A program made the translations under genes and the position numbers. Positions 4,023-53,016 of a DNA stretch of 64,000 bases are shown piece after piece (within the stretch, counting starts at the first letter, position 1; each line of letters starts with the position of its first letter). The notes under the pieces are model-generated. The model saw only the letters and a list, made by a program, of their open reading frames with translations, was not told the DNA's origin and made no database searches. Location: contig OX638356.1 in assembly GCA_951813395.1 (NCBI GenBank), forward strand, positions 3,112,501-3,176,500. The letters run 5' to 3'. The stretch is from Longimicrobiales bacterium (GTDB lineage: Bacteria; Gemmatimonadota; Gemmatimonadetes; Longimicrobiales; Gaopeijiaceae).

Positions 4023-4029
4023 CGGGCGG

Positions 4030-4147
4030 TTCATCTTTGCGGCCGGACTCGTGGTCTGCCGCAGGAGTTGGCACCTTTGCGGGAATGCCACTTCCCGCAG
4101 GTTGCCCCGGCTTCACAGGGCCTTTCCCTCAGCCGGTCTCGATGAGT
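4030..4147 (-). promoter_or_regulatory. SAM-I (S-box) riboswitch upstream of metX
   Basis: On the minus strand the segment matches the S-box aptamer in order. P1 is closed by TCATC at the 5' side and GATGA at the 3' side. Next come the GAGGGA-like and GGCCC...GAAGCCGGGGCAACC core, P3 TGCGGG...CCCGCA, the highly conserved AAGGTGCCAACTCC, P4 TGCGGC...GCCGCA, then AAGATGA. It lies directly upstream of the metX-metB-aspartate kinase operon, whose product pathway leads to SAM, so repression at high SAM is expected. Confidence 0.95.
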
Positions 4148-4185
4148 TGTCGTTGAACGATAGCTACAACGGAAAGAGTCGAGCG

Positions 4186-47242: not shown

Positions 47243-47269
47243 TCCCCGCACGACCGGAATCTGCGGGGA
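47243..47269 (-). terminator. hairpin ending the peptide cluster
   Basis: An 8-bp perfect stem (TCCCCGCA/TGCGGGGA, 11-base loop) lies 22 bases beyond the permease stop in the direction of transcription. A U-run is lacking. Position after the last gene of a nine-gene series supports a terminator. Confidence 0.5.
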
Positions 47270-47290
47270 TCGAAGCAGACAAGAGCAGCC

Positions 47291-47995
47291 CTACCAGTCC
47301 ATCGCGTCCGGCTCCGGTTCGTAGATTTCGAGCCCCTTGCGGGCGAGCAGGAAAGAGCCGGCCAGGACGAGGGCCGAAGCCACCAATGCCGTGGCCGTGG
47401 CAATCAGCAGCGTGTGGTCGCTGGCCATGATGGCCTGAATGGCCCGCAGCGGACTTCCGAAAAGCCGTTCGTAGAGGTAGCCCACTGTAAGGAACGCTGC
47501 AAGAACGGTTAGAAACCCATAGGTCATGACCGTCTTGGCCTTGAATCGGAGTGCAAGCCCCAGCGCGGAACTACAGCACGCGGATATGGTGATCCAAAAC
47601 ACGGGGAAGGAAACGGCGATGGTGCGGACAGTACTTGCGTCCGCGCCAATGCCGGGCCACGCCACACCAGCAGCAACGGCAAACGACAGAGCGCTGAGCG
47701 CCGAAAAGAGCGTGCCCGCCGTCAGCCGAGCCGCGGCGAGAGTCGATGCGCTCAAGGGCAGGGTGGTGAGCAATTCCAGGCCACCGGTCATCTTGTCCTT
47801 GGCCACCTCGAGGGGAACCTGCAGTGCGAGCGAAATACCCAGAATAGATAGCACGGCGCTCCATCCCGCCCGACCGAATCCCAGCACGAGCACCGCCACC
47901 GTGGCCACCGAGAACATGATTCCAACACCCATCAGGAACTGCCGCGAGCGTTGAAACTCAACACCCACCACTGCTCGAAATGCCTGCTTGGTCAT
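47291..47995 (-). CDS. ABC transporter permease of the peptide cluster
   Basis: A 234-residue membrane protein with about six segments, of ABC-2 type. The N-terminus MTKQAFRAVVGVEFQRSRQ is amphipathic and positive as in such permeases; the segments LQVPLEVAKDKMTGGLELLTTLPLSASTL form the usual coupling region. The ATG overlaps the ATPase stop by 4 bases. With the ATPase it would make a half-size ABC exporter or immunity pump for the peptides. It has no peptidase or fused ATPase domain. Confidence 0.8.
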   Translation of the reverse strand: MTKQAFRAVVGVEFQRSRQFLMGVGIMFSVATVAVLVLGFGRAGWSAVLSILGISLALQVPLEVAKDKMTGGLELLTTLPLSASTLAAARLTAGTLFSALSALSFAVAAGVAWPGIGADASTVRTIAVSFPVFWITISACCSSALGLALRFKAKTVMTYGFLTVLAAFLTVGYLYERLFGSPLRAIQAIMASDHTLLIATATALVASALVLAGSFLLARKGLEIYEPEPDAMDW

Positions 47996-48705
47996 GAACG
48001 CTCCAATGCTTGGAGGAGGATCTGGGAAAGCGGTGCACCCGGGTCGCGTTCCCGCAGCTCCGCAGTAGCGACATCTTCGAGGATTCGTCCCACCCTCATG
48101 AGGACGACCCGCTCGGCGATGAACTCCACGTCTTCCAGGATGTGGCTTGAGAAGATGACGAGCCGGTCGCCGCCACCAGGCGCACACTCGTCGATGATCC
48201 CGAGCAGCTCACGGCGCATGACCGGATCGATGGCCGACGTGGGCTCGTCCAGAATGAGGACAGGTGGCCGATGAGCCTCGGCTCCAACCAGAGACAGCTT
48301 TACCGCCATTCCCTTGGATAGTGTTCCGACCTTCGAGGCACTGGGAAGCTCCAGCCGCTCAAGGAGTTCCTCCGCGTACTCATGATCCCAGGTGGGATAG
48401 AACGCCGAAAGGAAACTCAGGTGTTCACCTACGGTCATCCACCCGAACCCGAGCAGCTTCTCGGGAAGAAACCCGATCTGCGCCCTGATCTCCGGCAACC
48501 GGGACCGGACGTCCTCTCCGCCGAGCTCCACCCCGCCCTCATAGTCCCGCAGCCGACCCGCGATCGCCTTGAGCGTCGTGCTCTTGCCGGCGCCGTTTGC
48601 TCCCACCACCGCCACGCGCTCTCCGGGATCGATCGACAGGTCCATCGGCTCCAGGAAAAAGTTCGAGTAGCGGACGCTGAATCCCCGCAACCTCACACCG
48701 ATCAT
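47992..48705 (-). CDS. ABC transporter ATPase of the peptide cluster
   Basis: A 237-residue ATPase. Walker A GANGAGKSTTLKAIAGRL, Q-loop region IGFLPEKLLGFGWMTVGEHL, signature LSKGMAVKLSLVGA, Walker B PVLILDEPTSAIDP and the H-loop HILEDVEF are all intact. The signature LSKGM is the type found in CcmA/BcrA-like antibiotic and bacteriocin self-protection ATPases. I start at ATG 48705 (MIGVRLRGFSVRYSN); an upstream ATG at 48762 would add 19 unlike residues and overlap the previous gene. Confidence 0.88.
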   Translation of the reverse strand: MIGVRLRGFSVRYSNFFLEPMDLSIDPGERVAVVGANGAGKSTTLKAIAGRLRDYEGGVELGGEDVRSRLPEIRAQIGFLPEKLLGFGWMTVGEHLSFLSAFYPTWDHEYAEELLERLELPSASKVGTLSKGMAVKLSLVGAEAHRPPVLILDEPTSAIDPVMRRELLGIIDECAPGGGDRLVIFSSHILEDVEFIAERVVLMRVGRILEDVATAELRERDPGAPLSQILLQALERS

Positions 48706-48746
48706 CTTGCAAGTCCCCACGCCGCCCCGCCCTCTCTCCGGCACCT

Positions 48747-49427
48747 CTATAATGTGACCCATGCACGCACCGCTGAAAAGGCCACCGTCACGCCCCAGAA
48801 GAAGAGCGCAAGACCGAGCGCCGGCCGGACCTCCAGGCCATCACACCGGCGCAAAGCCATCACAAGAAACGCGAACCAACAGACATGGCCGATGGAGAAG
48901 ACCTGCGCGATTGCCAGCAGGAAAGGACTGGTGGCCGGTACAAAAGCCGCCAGCCCCAGCGACACCTGCAGGTCTGCGGGCGAGTCGACGCTGCCGCCAG
49001 TGGTCAGATGCAGATAGAGAGCGAGCAGCACTCCCTGCGCAGCCAGAATCGCCTCTCCGTACAGCAGCACGGAGAGGACCGGGCGGATTCGGCGCTCCGA
49101 ATTCGTCAGTACGAGCACTGCCCAGCCCAGGATCGTCAACAGGCCTGCCTTGAACAGCTGGACCACCGGGGCGATCAGTGCGAGCGACCACACCATCAAC
49201 ATCATTCCCCGGGTTATTTCAGCCCCCTGATCTCCCATCAGACTCTGTAGCAGCGGTCGCAGGGAGAATGCTGCCGCGAGAGAGAACACCCATCCGACGA
49301 CCAGTGGCGGCACAATCGGCCGATGCACCCGAATGTCGTCCAGACTCGGAATGAGCATGTTCCCGAAGTGTCGCAACCTGGCCAGCACGCGTGGCGTCCA
49401 TCCCTCCACCTTGCCACCTCCTTTCAT
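48747..49427 (-). CDS. Yip1-like multi-spanning membrane protein
   Basis: A 226-residue protein with five to six hydrophobic segments and a soluble N-terminus (PRVLARLRHFGNMLIPSLDDIR). The layout resembles YIP1-domain proteins, often encoded next to ABC-2 exporters. Its ATG overlaps the stop of the thioredoxin-like gene by 4 bases. In this cluster it may be an immunity or transporter accessory protein; there is no direct evidence for either. Confidence 0.6.
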   Translation of the reverse strand: MKGGGKVEGWTPRVLARLRHFGNMLIPSLDDIRVHRPIVPPLVVGWVFSLAAAFSLRPLLQSLMGDQGAEITRGMMLMVWSLALIAPVVQLFKAGLLTILGWAVLVLTNSERRIRPVLSVLLYGEAILAAQGVLLALYLHLTTGGSVDSPADLQVSLGLAAFVPATSPFLLAIAQVFSIGHVCWFAFLVMALRRCDGLEVRPALGLALFFWGVTVAFSAVRAWVTL

Positions 49428-49996
49428 GACCCTCCCCCGTTTCCTCCGCGCACCACCGCGATGTAGTCCACCAGCCTGCGCCTGCCGGTTCGCCCGGCAT
49501 GCACGAGCCGCACGGTGTCCGAGCCGTCAACCCAGAACGTCGCCGGCACGGCGTTCAGTCCGAGAGCACGGGCGACGCTGCCGTCCTGGTCGTGCACCGT
49601 CCGCATACGAAGCGATGGAGGCACCCACGCGGCGCCATCCATTGCCGACTTCGGCGATGCGACCACCCACACCTGCAAGTCCCCAACTGTCGCGTTCGTC
49701 CCGTCACCGCTCCCGAGCAGAGACTCCCACAGCTCGAGTTCGGCCTTGCAATGAACACAGCTCCGGTCCACGTACACGAGGGCCGCCGAACTCCGGAAAC
49801 CGGACGCCCGCGCTTGCCCTCCACCCCACACCCGTTCGGTCACAATCCCCGGAAGCGCCCATGGCGGCTCCTCGGGCCCAGGACCAACCGGCGCCCTCCT
49901 GCCAGCCAGGACATACGGTGCCAGTCCGATTCCTACCACCATGACCGCAACGGCCGCAGCCACAACCTTCTTCACCATACCTCGTTCTACTCCCAT
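49424..49996 (-). CDS. membrane-anchored thioredoxin-like protein with CVHC
   Basis: A 190-residue protein with an N-terminal membrane anchor (VVAAAVAVMVVGIGLAPYVL) and an extracytoplasmic thioredoxin-like domain. The CxxC is Cys80-Val-His-Cys83 in VYVDRSCVHCKAELELW, and a cis-proline is seen in NAVPATFWVDG. CVHC is a redox motif of disulfide exchange proteins. Next to precursors with CxxC/CxxxC pairs, disulfide formation or isomerisation in the mature peptides is its likely task. The ATG has an excellent site, GGAGGAGG, and lies 80 bases after the last precursor gene. Confidence 0.8.
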   Translation of the reverse strand: MGVERGMVKKVVAAAVAVMVVGIGLAPYVLAGRRAPVGPGPEEPPWALPGIVTERVWGGGQARASGFRSSAALVYVDRSCVHCKAELELWESLLGSGDGTNATVGDLQVWVVASPKSAMDGAAWVPPSLRMRTVHDQDGSVARALGLNAVPATFWVDGSDTVRLVHAGRTGRRRLVDYIAVVRGGNGGGS

Positions 49997-50016
49997 CACG
50001 TTCCTCCTCCCGAACC

Positions 50017-50050
50017 GGAGCCCGGATGGACCACGATCCATCCGGGCTCC
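50017..50050 (-). promoter_or_regulatory. long perfect inverted repeat between precursor genes and thioredoxin-like gene
   Basis: A 14-bp perfect stem (GGAGCCCGGATGGA against TCCATCCGGGCTCC) with a 6-base loop lies between the fourth precursor and the thioredoxin-like gene. There is no U-run after it. It would protect the 3' end of the peptide-coding mRNA and lower read-through into the five downstream genes, giving more precursor than transporter, as is common in bacteriocin operons. The effect is inferred. Confidence 0.65.
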
Positions 50051-50076
50051 CCTCCCTACGAAGCCGAATTGTCCGT

Positions 50077-50370
50077 TCAGCCGAACGCCACGTGGCAGAT
50101 GTAGGCGCATGGCACAAGCGTGCCGAGCGGCGCGTTGCCAAATGCGATCATCAGTATGCAGCCCGCGCATGCCCCAGTCACAGCTGCCCAGAAGATCATG
50201 AGCGACTGTCCTCCGACTACATCCGGTGTCGCAGAAGCCTCCACCGTAGTTGGGGCCAGGACTCCGCCCACGTCACCGCGCAACCCTGTTTCACTTGCAG
50301 AGATTATCGTTGTACTAAGGGTCAGCGCACCTGCCAACATCACAACTGTCCTTCTCGCTACAGATCTCAT
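50077..50370 (-). CDS. small CxxC/CxxxC peptide precursor (fourth)
   Basis: A 97-residue precursor. An N-terminal signal-like segment (RRTVVMLAGALTLSTTII) is followed by a polar spacer and DVVGG at residues 50-54. The predicted mature part is 43 residues, hydrophobic, with CAGC (Cys68-Cys71) and CAYIC (Cys88-Cys92), 16 residues apart. It shares with its three upstream neighbours the order signal, spacer, VVG(G/A), GC-x2-C, C-x3-C. No known family recognised. A GGGAGG site lies 6 bases before ATG. Confidence 0.75.
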   Translation of the reverse strand: MRSVARRTVVMLAGALTLSTTIISASETGLRGDVGGVLAPTTVEASATPDVVGGQSLMIFWAAVTGACAGCILMIAFGNAPLGTLVPCAYICHVAFG

Positions 50371-50409
50371 CCTTGCCTCCCTCTTCGACGTTCTTCACTT
50401 GGCTCCACT

Positions 50410-50736
50410 TCAAAACACATCCACGCACGCTACAGTACACCCCAAGCCGACAGCGAAGCCCATCGGTGGTATCAGGGCAAGGAGGAAGACACTGATGCCG
50501 AAGCAGGTCCAACAGCCAGAATCAAGCTCCAACTGACCCCCAACCACGGCATTCACGTTCATGGCAACCTCCCGGTCGTGGCCATTCACAACACCATCGC
50601 TTTCTAGCGCCCGCACAACGTCAAGAGACGCCAGTTCGATCTGGCCGGTACCGTTCACCGGAACCGATGCCAGAGTCGTTTGCATGAGCGACAGGACAAG
50701 CATGCCACTCGTTATCATTCTTGTTGTCGATTTCAT
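50410..50736 (-). CDS. small CxxC/CxxxC peptide precursor (third)
   Basis: A 108-residue precursor. N-terminal signal-like segment (MITSGMLVLSLMQTTLA), a long acidic spacer, AVVGG at residues 63-67, then a 41-residue hydrophobic core with CWTC (Cys75-Cys78) and CTVAC (Cys100-Cys104), 21 residues apart, and a Pro-Pro break at the middle. I start at 50736 because of AGGAGAAAAAG just upstream; a longer reading to 50832 overlaps the previous gene. Codon use and base content are more AT-rich than in most of the window. Confidence 0.75.
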   Translation of the reverse strand: MKSTTRMITSGMLVLSLMQTTLASVPVNGTGQIELASLDVVRALESDGVVNGHDREVAMNVNAVVGGQLELDSGCWTCFGISVFLLALIPPMGFAVGLGCTVACVDVF

Positions 50737-50791
50737 CTTTTTCTCCTGTTGATTCCTGTTTGTTCGTTCACCGGCGATGATCCCTGTCCGC

Positions 50792-51112
50792 TCATGCGTA
50801 CCCGATATAGCAGAGACCGGCACATGCGGCATACACCGGCCAAAGCCATCCGAAACTCACAATGAGTCCAACCACTGATCCGGCACCCAATCCCAGCGCG
50901 GTGCCAACACAAACGTTGCAACCTCCCTTTACGATGATCGTGCCAATGCCGCCCTGCATTCCTACTACATTGTCCTCCTGTTGTGCTTCCATGGCGCCGT
51001 CCGCCCGCAATGTTGGCACGCGCCCTGGATTTGAAACAGTGGGATACGCTAACGCGGCGATGACTGCGAATAGAGTCACATGCCTCAACACTTTCTTGCC
51101 CCTCACAAGCAT
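50792..51112 (-). CDS. small CxxC/CxxxC peptide precursor (second)
   Basis: A 106-residue precursor. N-terminal signal-like segment (VTLFAVIAALAYPTVS), a spacer, NVVGMQGG at residues 48-55, then about 51 residues with CNVC (Cys65-Cys68) and CAGLC (Cys97-Cys101), 28 residues apart. Between the cysteine pairs are two Gly-rich hydrophobic stretches that could form a helical hairpin. A GAGGAAAGGAGA site touches the ATG. Together with the first precursor it is the most Gly-rich of the four. Confidence 0.75.
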   Translation of the reverse strand: MLVRGKKVLRHVTLFAVIAALAYPTVSNPGRVPTLRADGAMEAQQEDNVVGMQGGIGTIIVKGGCNVCVGTALGLGAGSVVGLIVSFGWLWPVYAACAGLCYIGYA

Positions 51113-51133
51113 TCTCCTTTCCTCAAAAGGCTC

Positions 51134-51427
51134 CTACATGACCGAGTGATAGCAGAATCCAGCGCAAGCCCCCAATGCGAGGGTGGATCCGGCTTTGCCA
51201 GCTGCGGCTACGACGGCAACCCACCCACCGGTGTACGCCAGACCTACTCCGACGGCGATGCACCCGACGCAACCGAGGAAAGACTTCCAACCGGCGCCAA
51301 CAACCGCCGTCGTCTCCACGGGCTGCGGCGACCTGTCAGCGATTGTGCCGCCGACTGTCGCGGCCTGGGTGCCCAGCAGTGCCAGACACAGTGTCAGCAC
51401 GATGGGCCGAAAACTCCTCTTCTTCAT
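51134..51427 (-). CDS. small CxxC/CxxxC peptide precursor (first)
   Basis: A 97-residue precursor, the first after the C39 peptidase gene. N-terminal signal-like segment (PIVLTLCLALLGTQAAT), spacer, AVVGA at residues 41-45 (GA in place of GG), then 52 residues with CVGC (Cys53-Cys56) and CAGFC (Cys88-Cys92), 31 residues apart. The core GVGLAYTGGWVAVVAAAG is a Gly-rich helix candidate. The site GGAGGAGAAGG lies right before ATG. Order and motifs identify it as a paralogue of the next three genes. Confidence 0.75.
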   Translation of the reverse strand: MKKRSFRPIVLTLCLALLGTQAATVGGTIADRSPQPVETTAVVGAGWKSFLGCVGCIAVGVGLAYTGGWVAVVAAAGKAGSTLALGACAGFCYHSVM

Positions 51428-51492
51428 CCTTCTCCTCCTCTTCTGATGTGGTGACCTGGACCGCGTCGCTCCTCGCCGCGGCCGATCCGGTG

Positions 51493-52092
51493 CTACCCGG
51501 CGAGCAGGATCGACTCGCCGGACCAGATCTTCTCGAATCCTTCCTCGCTGATCGAATAGCGGCCCACCGAAGGGTCCACGACGGTGAGACGTCCGGATGG
51601 CGACCTTCCGGTGACCGTCACGAAGTGGTTGCGGTTCACCCAGGCGATGAACGGGAGACGCGTGTGCGGCAGTTCGGCCGACGTGAGCCGTGTTAGCATG
51701 AGCGACAGGTTGAATCGGCTCGCGGCACGGATCAGCCCACCCGCAGTCGTCCCTCGCGGCTCAGTCCCCGCCAGCACCATGAGCGAGTCGGTCGATGGCG
51801 CAGCAACGCCGACAATGCGCATCATGTTGGCCAGCGCGGCAGGGCCGCAGTCATTCAGCGCGGCCTGGAAGACTACGCCGTCACTTCCCAGGAACTCCGC
51901 ATCCGACCGGGCCAGTTCGGCACGGGCGACAAGTCGCCCCAGACGGGGCAGATCGCTGGCCGCCAGGGTCCCGAGCGCGAGCGCGCCTGACACAAGGACG
52001 AGCACAAGGACGGCGGAGCGGCGAAGGTTGCGCGCGCGCTTCCCCGATCCATGTTCTCGCGGGCCGGAGACTTCGGACTGGTACCTTGGCAT
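51493..52092 (-). CDS. membrane-anchored C39 family peptidase
   Basis: A 199-residue protein with a basic N-terminus, one membrane helix (AVLVLVLVSGALALGTLAA, residues 27-45) and a C39 cysteine peptidase domain outside the membrane. The catalytic residues are Gln76, Cys82 (NDCGPAALANM), His156 (NRNHFVTV) and Asp173 (VVDPSVG). C39 domains remove double-glycine leaders of bacteriocins; they are usually fused to an ABC transporter on the cytosolic side, but here the domain stands alone and probably faces the periplasm. GCGAGG precedes ATG 52092. It heads the nine-gene cluster. Confidence 0.88.
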   Translation of the reverse strand: MPRYQSEVSGPREHGSGKRARNLRRSAVLVLVLVSGALALGTLAASDLPRLGRLVARAELARSDAEFLGSDGVVFQAALNDCGPAALANMMRIVGVAAPSTDSLMVLAGTEPRGTTAGGLIRAASRFNLSLMLTRLTSAELPHTRLPFIAWVNRNHFVTVTGRSPSGRLTVVDPSVGRYSISEEGFEKIWSGESILLAG

Positions 52093-52316: not shown

Positions 52317-52943
52317 CTACAGCGACTTCAGGACCTCCAGGATGTCCTCGTTGGTGGGCCGCACCCGGTAGTCCACCTCCACGAAGCGGTACCGCACGAC
52401 GCCTTCCTTGTCGATCACGTAGGTGGCGGGGTGCGGCAGAGGCCGGTTGGGAGGCGCGTTCTCGTTGAACAGGCCGTAGCGGTCGATTACGGCGTGGTCC
52501 GGGTCGGAGAGCATGATGAAATCGGGGGCCATGCCGTCCTCCGCGGCGACACGGTCGATCATCAACTGCATCCCCTCCCGGTCGTCCACCGACACCGTCA
52601 CGATTTCCGTCTCGTCATTGAGATCGTCGGGCAAAAGGGCTCTCAGCTCCACGAGCTGACCGGCGCAGTAGGGTCACCAGTGGCCCCGGTAGAAGACGAG
52701 CACCACGTTCTTGTCCCCGCGGAAGCCCGAAAGCGCCACCGTGCCGCGGTCGAAGGACTCCAGGGCGAACAGCGGCGCTTCGCCCCCGACCGCCACGCGC
52801 TCGATGTCGGTGCCCGGCAGGTCGTGACCGTCGGCCGGACCCAGCTCCTGTGCGCGAGTCGAGTTTGCGGTCGCTGCCAGGGCGAGCAGCACCGGCAACG
52901 CGATGGATCGCCTGCCGGCCGGGAATCGAATGATCGGGAACAT
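52317..52943 (-). CDS. selenocysteine-containing AhpC/TSA thioredoxin-fold protein (UPYC)
   Basis: A 208-residue exported thioredoxin-fold protein if TGA at 52674-52676 is read as selenocysteine. The signal segment is SIALPVLLALAATANSTRAQ. The fold follows with APLFALESFDRGTVALSGFRGDKNVVLVFYRGHW, then residue 90 is the TGA, then PYCAGQLVELRALLP: the family active site WCPYC has its first cysteine replaced by UGA, giving U-P-Y-C. Translation of the same frame beyond TGA is fully homologous (VTVSVDDREGMQLMIDR, HPATYVIDKEGVVRYRFV). A SECIS-like hairpin follows. The rival view is a nonsense mutation; start at 52943 or 53003. Confidence 0.78.
52643..52659 (-). promoter_or_regulatory. SECIS-like hairpin of the UPYC gene
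   Basis: On the minus strand TCAGCTC-GTG-GAGCTGA forms a 7-bp perfect stem with a GUG loop. It begins 14 bases after the UGA, so the loop starts 22 bases downstream, with G first. Bacterial SECIS elements have an apical loop about 16-37 bases after UGA with a G in the first two loop positions, so this fits. Confidence 0.65.
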
Positions 52944-53016
52944 TTTCGTGGTCCATTGCGAGGCGGCGGATTCCAACCGGGTACACCCCCGGTTCCGGGA
53001 CACCTATGTTAATCGC

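Follow-up and report, generated by a model that had tools for sequence, protein, structure and literature searches.

We found that a nine-gene cluster in the genome of a Longimicrobiales bacterium encodes a stand-alone C39 peptidase together with two diverged families of small cysteine-bearing precursor peptides, and that these precursors and their machinery recur in the same order in 18 genomes of the phylum Gemmatimonadota. The cluster lies on the minus strand at positions 52092-47291 of the window, by which we mean the whole 64,000-nucleotide stretch of contig OX638356.1 (assembly GCA_951813395.1) that was analysed. With a probability of about one half, we favor the reading that it specifies a Sec-routed, periplasm-processed, two-peptide bacteriocin-like system, in which the ATP-binding cassette (ABC) transporter and a Yip1-like protein would serve immunity or release. 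An earlier note on this DNA had described nine same-direction genes with short overlaps. All of the open reading frames (ORFs), their starts, and the overlaps were borne out, and the 4-nt overlaps are real at both the thioredoxin/Yip1 and the ATPase/permease junctions. The features, in the order of transcription, are as follows.

51493..52092, minus strand: stand-alone C39 peptidase of 199 aa with an N-terminal membrane anchor (PF03412, E 1.9e-23)
51134..51427, minus strand: precursor p1, family A, signal and leader ending in VVGA, core GWKSFLGCVGC...CAGFC of 52 aa (A model, alignment A2)
50792..51112, minus strand: precursor p2, family B, signal and leader ending in VVGM, core of about 54 aa with CNVC and CAGLC (B model, alignment A3)
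50410..50736, minus strand: precursor p3, optional extra, leader ending in VVGG, core QLELDSGCWTC...CTVAC of 41 aa (scores with neither A nor B; VVG and four Cys)
50077..50370, minus strand: precursor p4, optional extra, leader ending in VVGG, core QSLMIFW...CAGC...CAYIC of 43 aa (scores with neither A nor B; VVG and four Cys)
49424..49996, minus strand: membrane-anchored thioredoxin-like (Trx) protein, active site CVHC (weak AhpC-TSA/DsbE similarity)
48747..49427, minus strand: Yip1-type polytopic membrane protein of 226 aa (PF04893 in some orthologues; several hydrophobic segments)
47992..48705, minus strand: ABC ATPase of 237 aa (PF00005, 1.4e-27)
47291..47995, minus strand: ABC permease of 234 aa, fast evolving (six hydrophobic segments)
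47246..47270, minus strand: GC-rich hairpin 3' of the permease gene, possible terminator (computed fold)

The C39 protein served as the query for 295 genomes of the class, and profiles of the precursors and of the Yip1 protein for 395 genomes of Gemmatimonadota. The search in depth covered one phylum; a contig scan with C39 as the query also gave matches only in Gemmatimonadota, and no restriction to the phylum is claimed. The C39 search yielded 16 further loci with close or moderate stand-alone C39 matches. Each of these loci continues from C39, on the same strand, with small Cys-bearing ORFs and then with the Trx, Yip1, ATPase, and permease genes, except that the contig of one (L038) stops after the precursors. 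Family B was strong in 18 of the 395 genomes and family A in the identical 18, and the Yip1 protein was found at E<1e-50 in 17 of these, the eighteenth being interrupted by a contig end; strong matches to A, B, or Yip1 were absent from the remaining genomes sampled. Among the 18, G326 was not matched in the C39 search; its contig starts within C39 and then runs through A, B, Trx, Yip1, and the ATPase in the same order. The earlier note had made its proposal depend on the conservation of the precursors beside C39, and the precursors were found together with the C39 operon in 18 of 18 genomes. As precursors and machinery keep the same order in all of these genomes, the recurrence of the cluster is beyond chance.

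A highly divergent version of the operon occurs in a further genus (L203, 4786-11294). Its genes stand in the same order: C39, whose match is weak but above the cut-off (E 9e-6), precursors resembling A and B, a Trx-like protein in which CxxC is replaced by the single-Cys sequence CPAS, a polytopic protein, an ATPase, and a weakly ABC-2-like permease. Two FtsX-like permeases lie beyond them, and the A-like precursor is shared with L204. Weaker Yip1 matches (E 1e-10 to 1e-19) were found in family f6, with no C39 or precursor in the two neighborhoods read (L205 and L206). Other stand-alone C39 genes of the class (L054-L057) sit in unrelated contexts; in L055 and L056, the C39 gene lies directly 3' of a gene for an ABC ATPase, and no adjoining precursors were seen.

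We curated 54 precursors across the loci. By a simple rule, 52 of them have a signal-like N-terminus, and in 53 the motif [VIL]-x-G-x can be placed directly before the core cysteines, with V at P4 in 47 of the 53 and G at P2 in all; the motif search itself required G and V/I/L, and the informative part is the position, not the letters. At P1, next to this Gly, half of the precursors have G or A and the others R, T, Q, or S. A P2 Gly with a hydrophobic P4 is the pattern, in a broad sense, of double-glycine peptides matured by C39 peptidases. The extra precursors of L042 and L044 retain VVGGQ despite the loss of CxxC, which suggests that the processing motif may be under constraint separate from the cysteines.

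The earlier note had described the four precursors of the window as paralogues. VVG, CxxC, and CxxxC are indeed common to all four; they are not equivalent, however, and comprise an A+B pair plus optional extras. When scored with models built with the locus in question left out, A members gave 16-69 bits with the A model and at most 22 with the B model, and B members gave 31-65 bits with the B model and at most 23 with the A model. In the window, p1 scored 52.5 bits to A versus 12.9 to B, and p2 scored 30.9 bits to B versus 1.4 to A. Every complete locus has one A followed by one B, that is, two different peptides from adjacent genes of an operon, plus as many as four extras with no clear score to either model; the sole exception among the loci read is L043, where the A core lies in a reading frame that shows no leader. 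The two families are distantly paralogous to each other (hhalign E 1.8e-12). On the basis of these scores, A and B are regarded as two diverged paralogous families, and p3 and p4 as optional extras. In L043, two small ORFs inside the precursor array (6666-6033, minus strand) have near-identical signal regions (MKTKYAKKFSR...) and Cys-rich cores without the V-x-G motif.

In the AlphaFold2 models, computed from shallow alignments, a signal helix is followed by a leader predicted with low confidence, and the core consists of three short helices, of which the first bears CxxC and the last CxxxC; the predicted local distance difference test (pLDDT) score of the core was 80-90 for p2 and 69-82 for p1. 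In the structure search, Foldseek gave nothing at E<=0.001 and VIA-align nothing at Z of at least 5; as no solved fold was matched, none was assigned. Searches of Pfam (with A and B) and NCBIfam (with the window proteins and B) gave nothing above chance for A or B, a PDB sequence search with the A2 and A3 alignments gave no credible match, and a plasmid search using one B precursor gave none.

In the 4.09-Mb genome, PF03412 matches nothing but the C39 peptidase of the window, and since this single match is stand-alone, the genome yielded no classical C39-ABC exporter. The QxxxxDCGPA, H, and D motifs of the peptidase are intact in 16 of 16 aligned orthologues; a catalytically complete peptidase is encoded with the precursors. 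The anchor is oriented positive-inside in 15 of the 16, and the CxxC and transmembrane anchor of Trx are kept in 16 of 16 orthologues. These positive-inside anchors place the C39 domain and Trx, by prediction, in the periplasm. Because of this orientation and the Sec-type signals on the precursors, processing after export appears well supported, and the claims of the earlier note on Sec export, extracytoplasmic processing, and Cys-bearing peptides gain support from the topology signals and the conservation. Its assignment of a Yip1-like protein was upheld in part: PF04893 was found in four of 15 orthologues (best 6e-6), but the window protein has no support of its own in the Pfam search. The best NCBIfam match of the ABC ATPase is PmtA (2e-37, under the cut-off of that model), so that its resemblance to ATPases of peptide export or protection is only generic, and the window permease had no family match in Pfam or NCBIfam.

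A comparison of two close relatives gave ratios of nonsynonymous to synonymous substitution (dN/dS) of 0.24-0.61 for the precursors, save one at 0.99; the machinery had values of 0.11 (Yip1), 0.25 (C39), 0.27 (Trx), and 0.37 (permease). Judged by these ratios, the precursors are translated and constrained, yet mostly evolve faster than the machinery. The fastest-evolving parts are the peptides and the permease. A purine-rich Shine-Dalgarno-like stretch lies directly 5' of every precursor.

The module occupies a defined chromosomal slot. The flanking genes for a probable selenoprotein peroxiredoxin and an M28 peptidase are kept in all 23 genomes of the genus of the window, and between them we found the module (seven genomes), only about 150-330 bp (six), a propeller-like/ABC cassette (four), other content (three), or contig breaks (three). 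As the module is present, absent, or replaced between fixed flanks, it is an accessory cassette in one slot, whose history may be one of vertical inheritance with losses or one of exchange in the slot; either fits. The cassette of L154-L157 contains a propeller-like protein, an ABC ATPase, and a permease of 244 aa, joined in some of the four by small Cys-bearing secreted proteins, and may be a functional counterpart of the module. In L152, L153, and L158, the slot has a propeller-like gene, small Cys-bearing secreted proteins, and an ORF with weak similarity to the membrane anchor of C39 (E 0.008), possibly a remnant.

The closest known system that we found is haemocin (locus hmcDCBAI, Haemophilus/Avibacterium), with plasmid p250 of Avibacterium paragallinarum as the worked example. 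The two C39 peptidases share 32% identity over 128 residues. Haemocin likewise has a stand-alone C39 with an N-terminal export signal, an adjoining ATPase gene, and a structural gene with a Sec-type signal, a double-glycine motif (EVKGG), and four Cys (CSVC...CHNC); the same combination of Sec signal, double-glycine motif, and four-Cys core next to a stand-alone C39 is found in our cluster. In contrast to the A/B pair, haemocin is one hydrophilic, basic-looking peptide, and its locus has HmcD, a probable outer-membrane barrel (weak match), and a small immunity gene but no thioredoxin and no Yip1 protein; the precursor cores, compared by eye only, look unrelated. The earlier note could not assign the cluster to a known class. 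This holds for the peptides, which belong to no known family, but the logic of Sec signal, double-glycine motif, stand-alone C39, and four Cys has its precedent in haemocin.

The Fap system of Pseudomonas also resembles the cluster, in having a periplasmic C39 protease, FapD, that serves Sec-exported small proteins. In the text on Fap that we read (PMC5557850), FapD is described as a Sec-exported C39 protease that is active in the periplasm and required for secretion in its system; this text calls periplasmic C39 peptidases uncharacterised and the FapD target unclear, and describes no thioredoxin or ABC unit. The Fap substrates differ in being amyloid proteins exported by the FapF barrel, and none of our nine genes gave an HmcD-like or FapF-type barrel match in the family searches. 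Class II and IIb bacteriocins share with the cluster a V-x-G-G-like cleavage motif, small hydrophobic peptides, and two different peptides from adjacent genes; their C39, however, is cytosol-facing and fused to the peptide-secreting ABC exporter, whereas that of the cluster is a separate, anchored protein of 199 aa that is predicted to face the periplasm. No modifying enzyme of the kind that marks lanthipeptide-type systems (LanM/LanB, radical SAM, or YcaO) was matched among the nine proteins.

The gene order, motifs, topology signals, co-occurrence, A/B pairing, and purifying selection on the precursors can be read from the sequences, and from them we infer the following route. A, B, and the extras would cross the inner membrane through Sec, and the membrane-anchored C39 would cut past V-x-G-x on the periplasmic side. 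The anchored Trx-like protein would make or correct disulfides between the CxxC and CxxxC helices. After a putative exit through the outer membrane, the hydrophobic helical A and B cores of about 50 residues would jointly act on the membranes of competitors or siblings, and the ABC ATPase/permease and Yip1 would protect the producer or aid release. We favor such a bacteriocin-like pair because of the analogy with haemocin and FapD. Neither A nor B occurs without the other or without C39, and the same 18 of 395 genomes have them all. A patchy slot with empty sites and fast-evolving peptides and permease, as seen here, are usual for antagonism genes.

Several points weigh against this reading. 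The operon has no dedicated small immunity gene and no outer-membrane exporter, and no orphan Yip1 copies were found in the relatives, though immune non-producers would have such copies. A role as exporter would suit the ABC trio equally well. The cores also differ from textbook class IIb peptides in not being cationic, with a mean charge about neutral (-0.4 and -0.2). GxxxG, considered as support for class IIb, was rejected; it is not enriched, and its counts are at or below the shuffled expectation (A, 13 versus 17.9; B, 21 versus 21.2).

The neutral, hydrophobic cores suit two other explanations. In the first, which we regard as unlikely, A and B would be subunits of a heteromeric hydrophobic structure of the envelope or surface, as in Pseudomonas Fap, with C39 licensing assembly and ABC/Yip1 serving placement. 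The obligate A+B pairing and the variant extras fit major and minor subunits, but the nine genes include no FapF-like barrel or anchor gene, the predicted cores are compact short helices, and structural parts would less often diverge fast or leave empty sites. In the second, somewhat less probable still, the peptides would be self-directed and membrane-acting, for sibling killing or for control of envelope stress or permeability, and ABC/Yip1 would protect the producer. The model here is SDP of Bacillus subtilis, which is Sec-exported, hydrophobic, disulfide-bonded, about 42 residues long, and matured outside the cytosol; it is one peptide, however, matured by signal peptidase with SdpA/SdpB rather than by C39, and no match to the SdpA, SdpB, or SdpI families was found among the nine genes.

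In other bacteria, double-glycine-type leaders and C39 peptidases serve the maturation of pheromones as well, and the several sequence variants per locus would suit secreted peptide signals with ABC-based uptake or clearance. We consider this improbable: no regulator, kinase, or receptor gene was found in the operon or conserved beside it in the neighborhoods read, and strongly hydrophobic cores of about 50 residues are unlike most known pheromones. It is hardly credible that the precursors are open frames that arose by chance next to an ABC operon of the ordinary kind, for although spurious long ORFs are numerous in this high-GC region, recognisable precursors stand in the same place in 18 genomes, most with dN/dS of 0.18-0.62, and have ribosome-binding-like sites.

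At the 3' end, the hairpin in which the cluster was said to end is present, but its GC stem has no clear T run and the terminator scan did not pick it; as judged from the computed fold, a role as terminator is plausible. Upstream of C39, a peroxiredoxin-like gene (window 52317-53003, minus strand) encodes the motif FYRGHWUPYC, in which U stands for an in-frame TGA. A tRNA-Sec (79.7 bits) is encoded in the genome, and in 23 of 23 genomes of the genus the best match to the gene has one in-frame TGA, so it is probably a selenoprotein gene. A SAM riboswitch (74.3 bits) lies at 4028-4148 (minus strand) of the window.

No description of the cluster or of a comparable system was found in the literature on Gemmatimonadota and bacteriocins or C39, most subscription papers being outside the search. 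Tentatively, and at somewhat less than even odds, the cluster may represent an undescribed class of heteromeric (A+B) peptide effectors of double-membrane bacteria, which would be Sec-routed, cut by a periplasmic C39 at V-x-G-x, disulfide-stapled by Trx, and released or neutralised by a new type of ABC-Yip1 unit. The findings add two new precursor families without a Pfam model. Since candidate substrates with a recurrent motif adjoin C39 in 18 genomes, substrate recognition by this peptidase is directly testable, and the cluster provides a candidate antagonism system in the phylum Gemmatimonadota.
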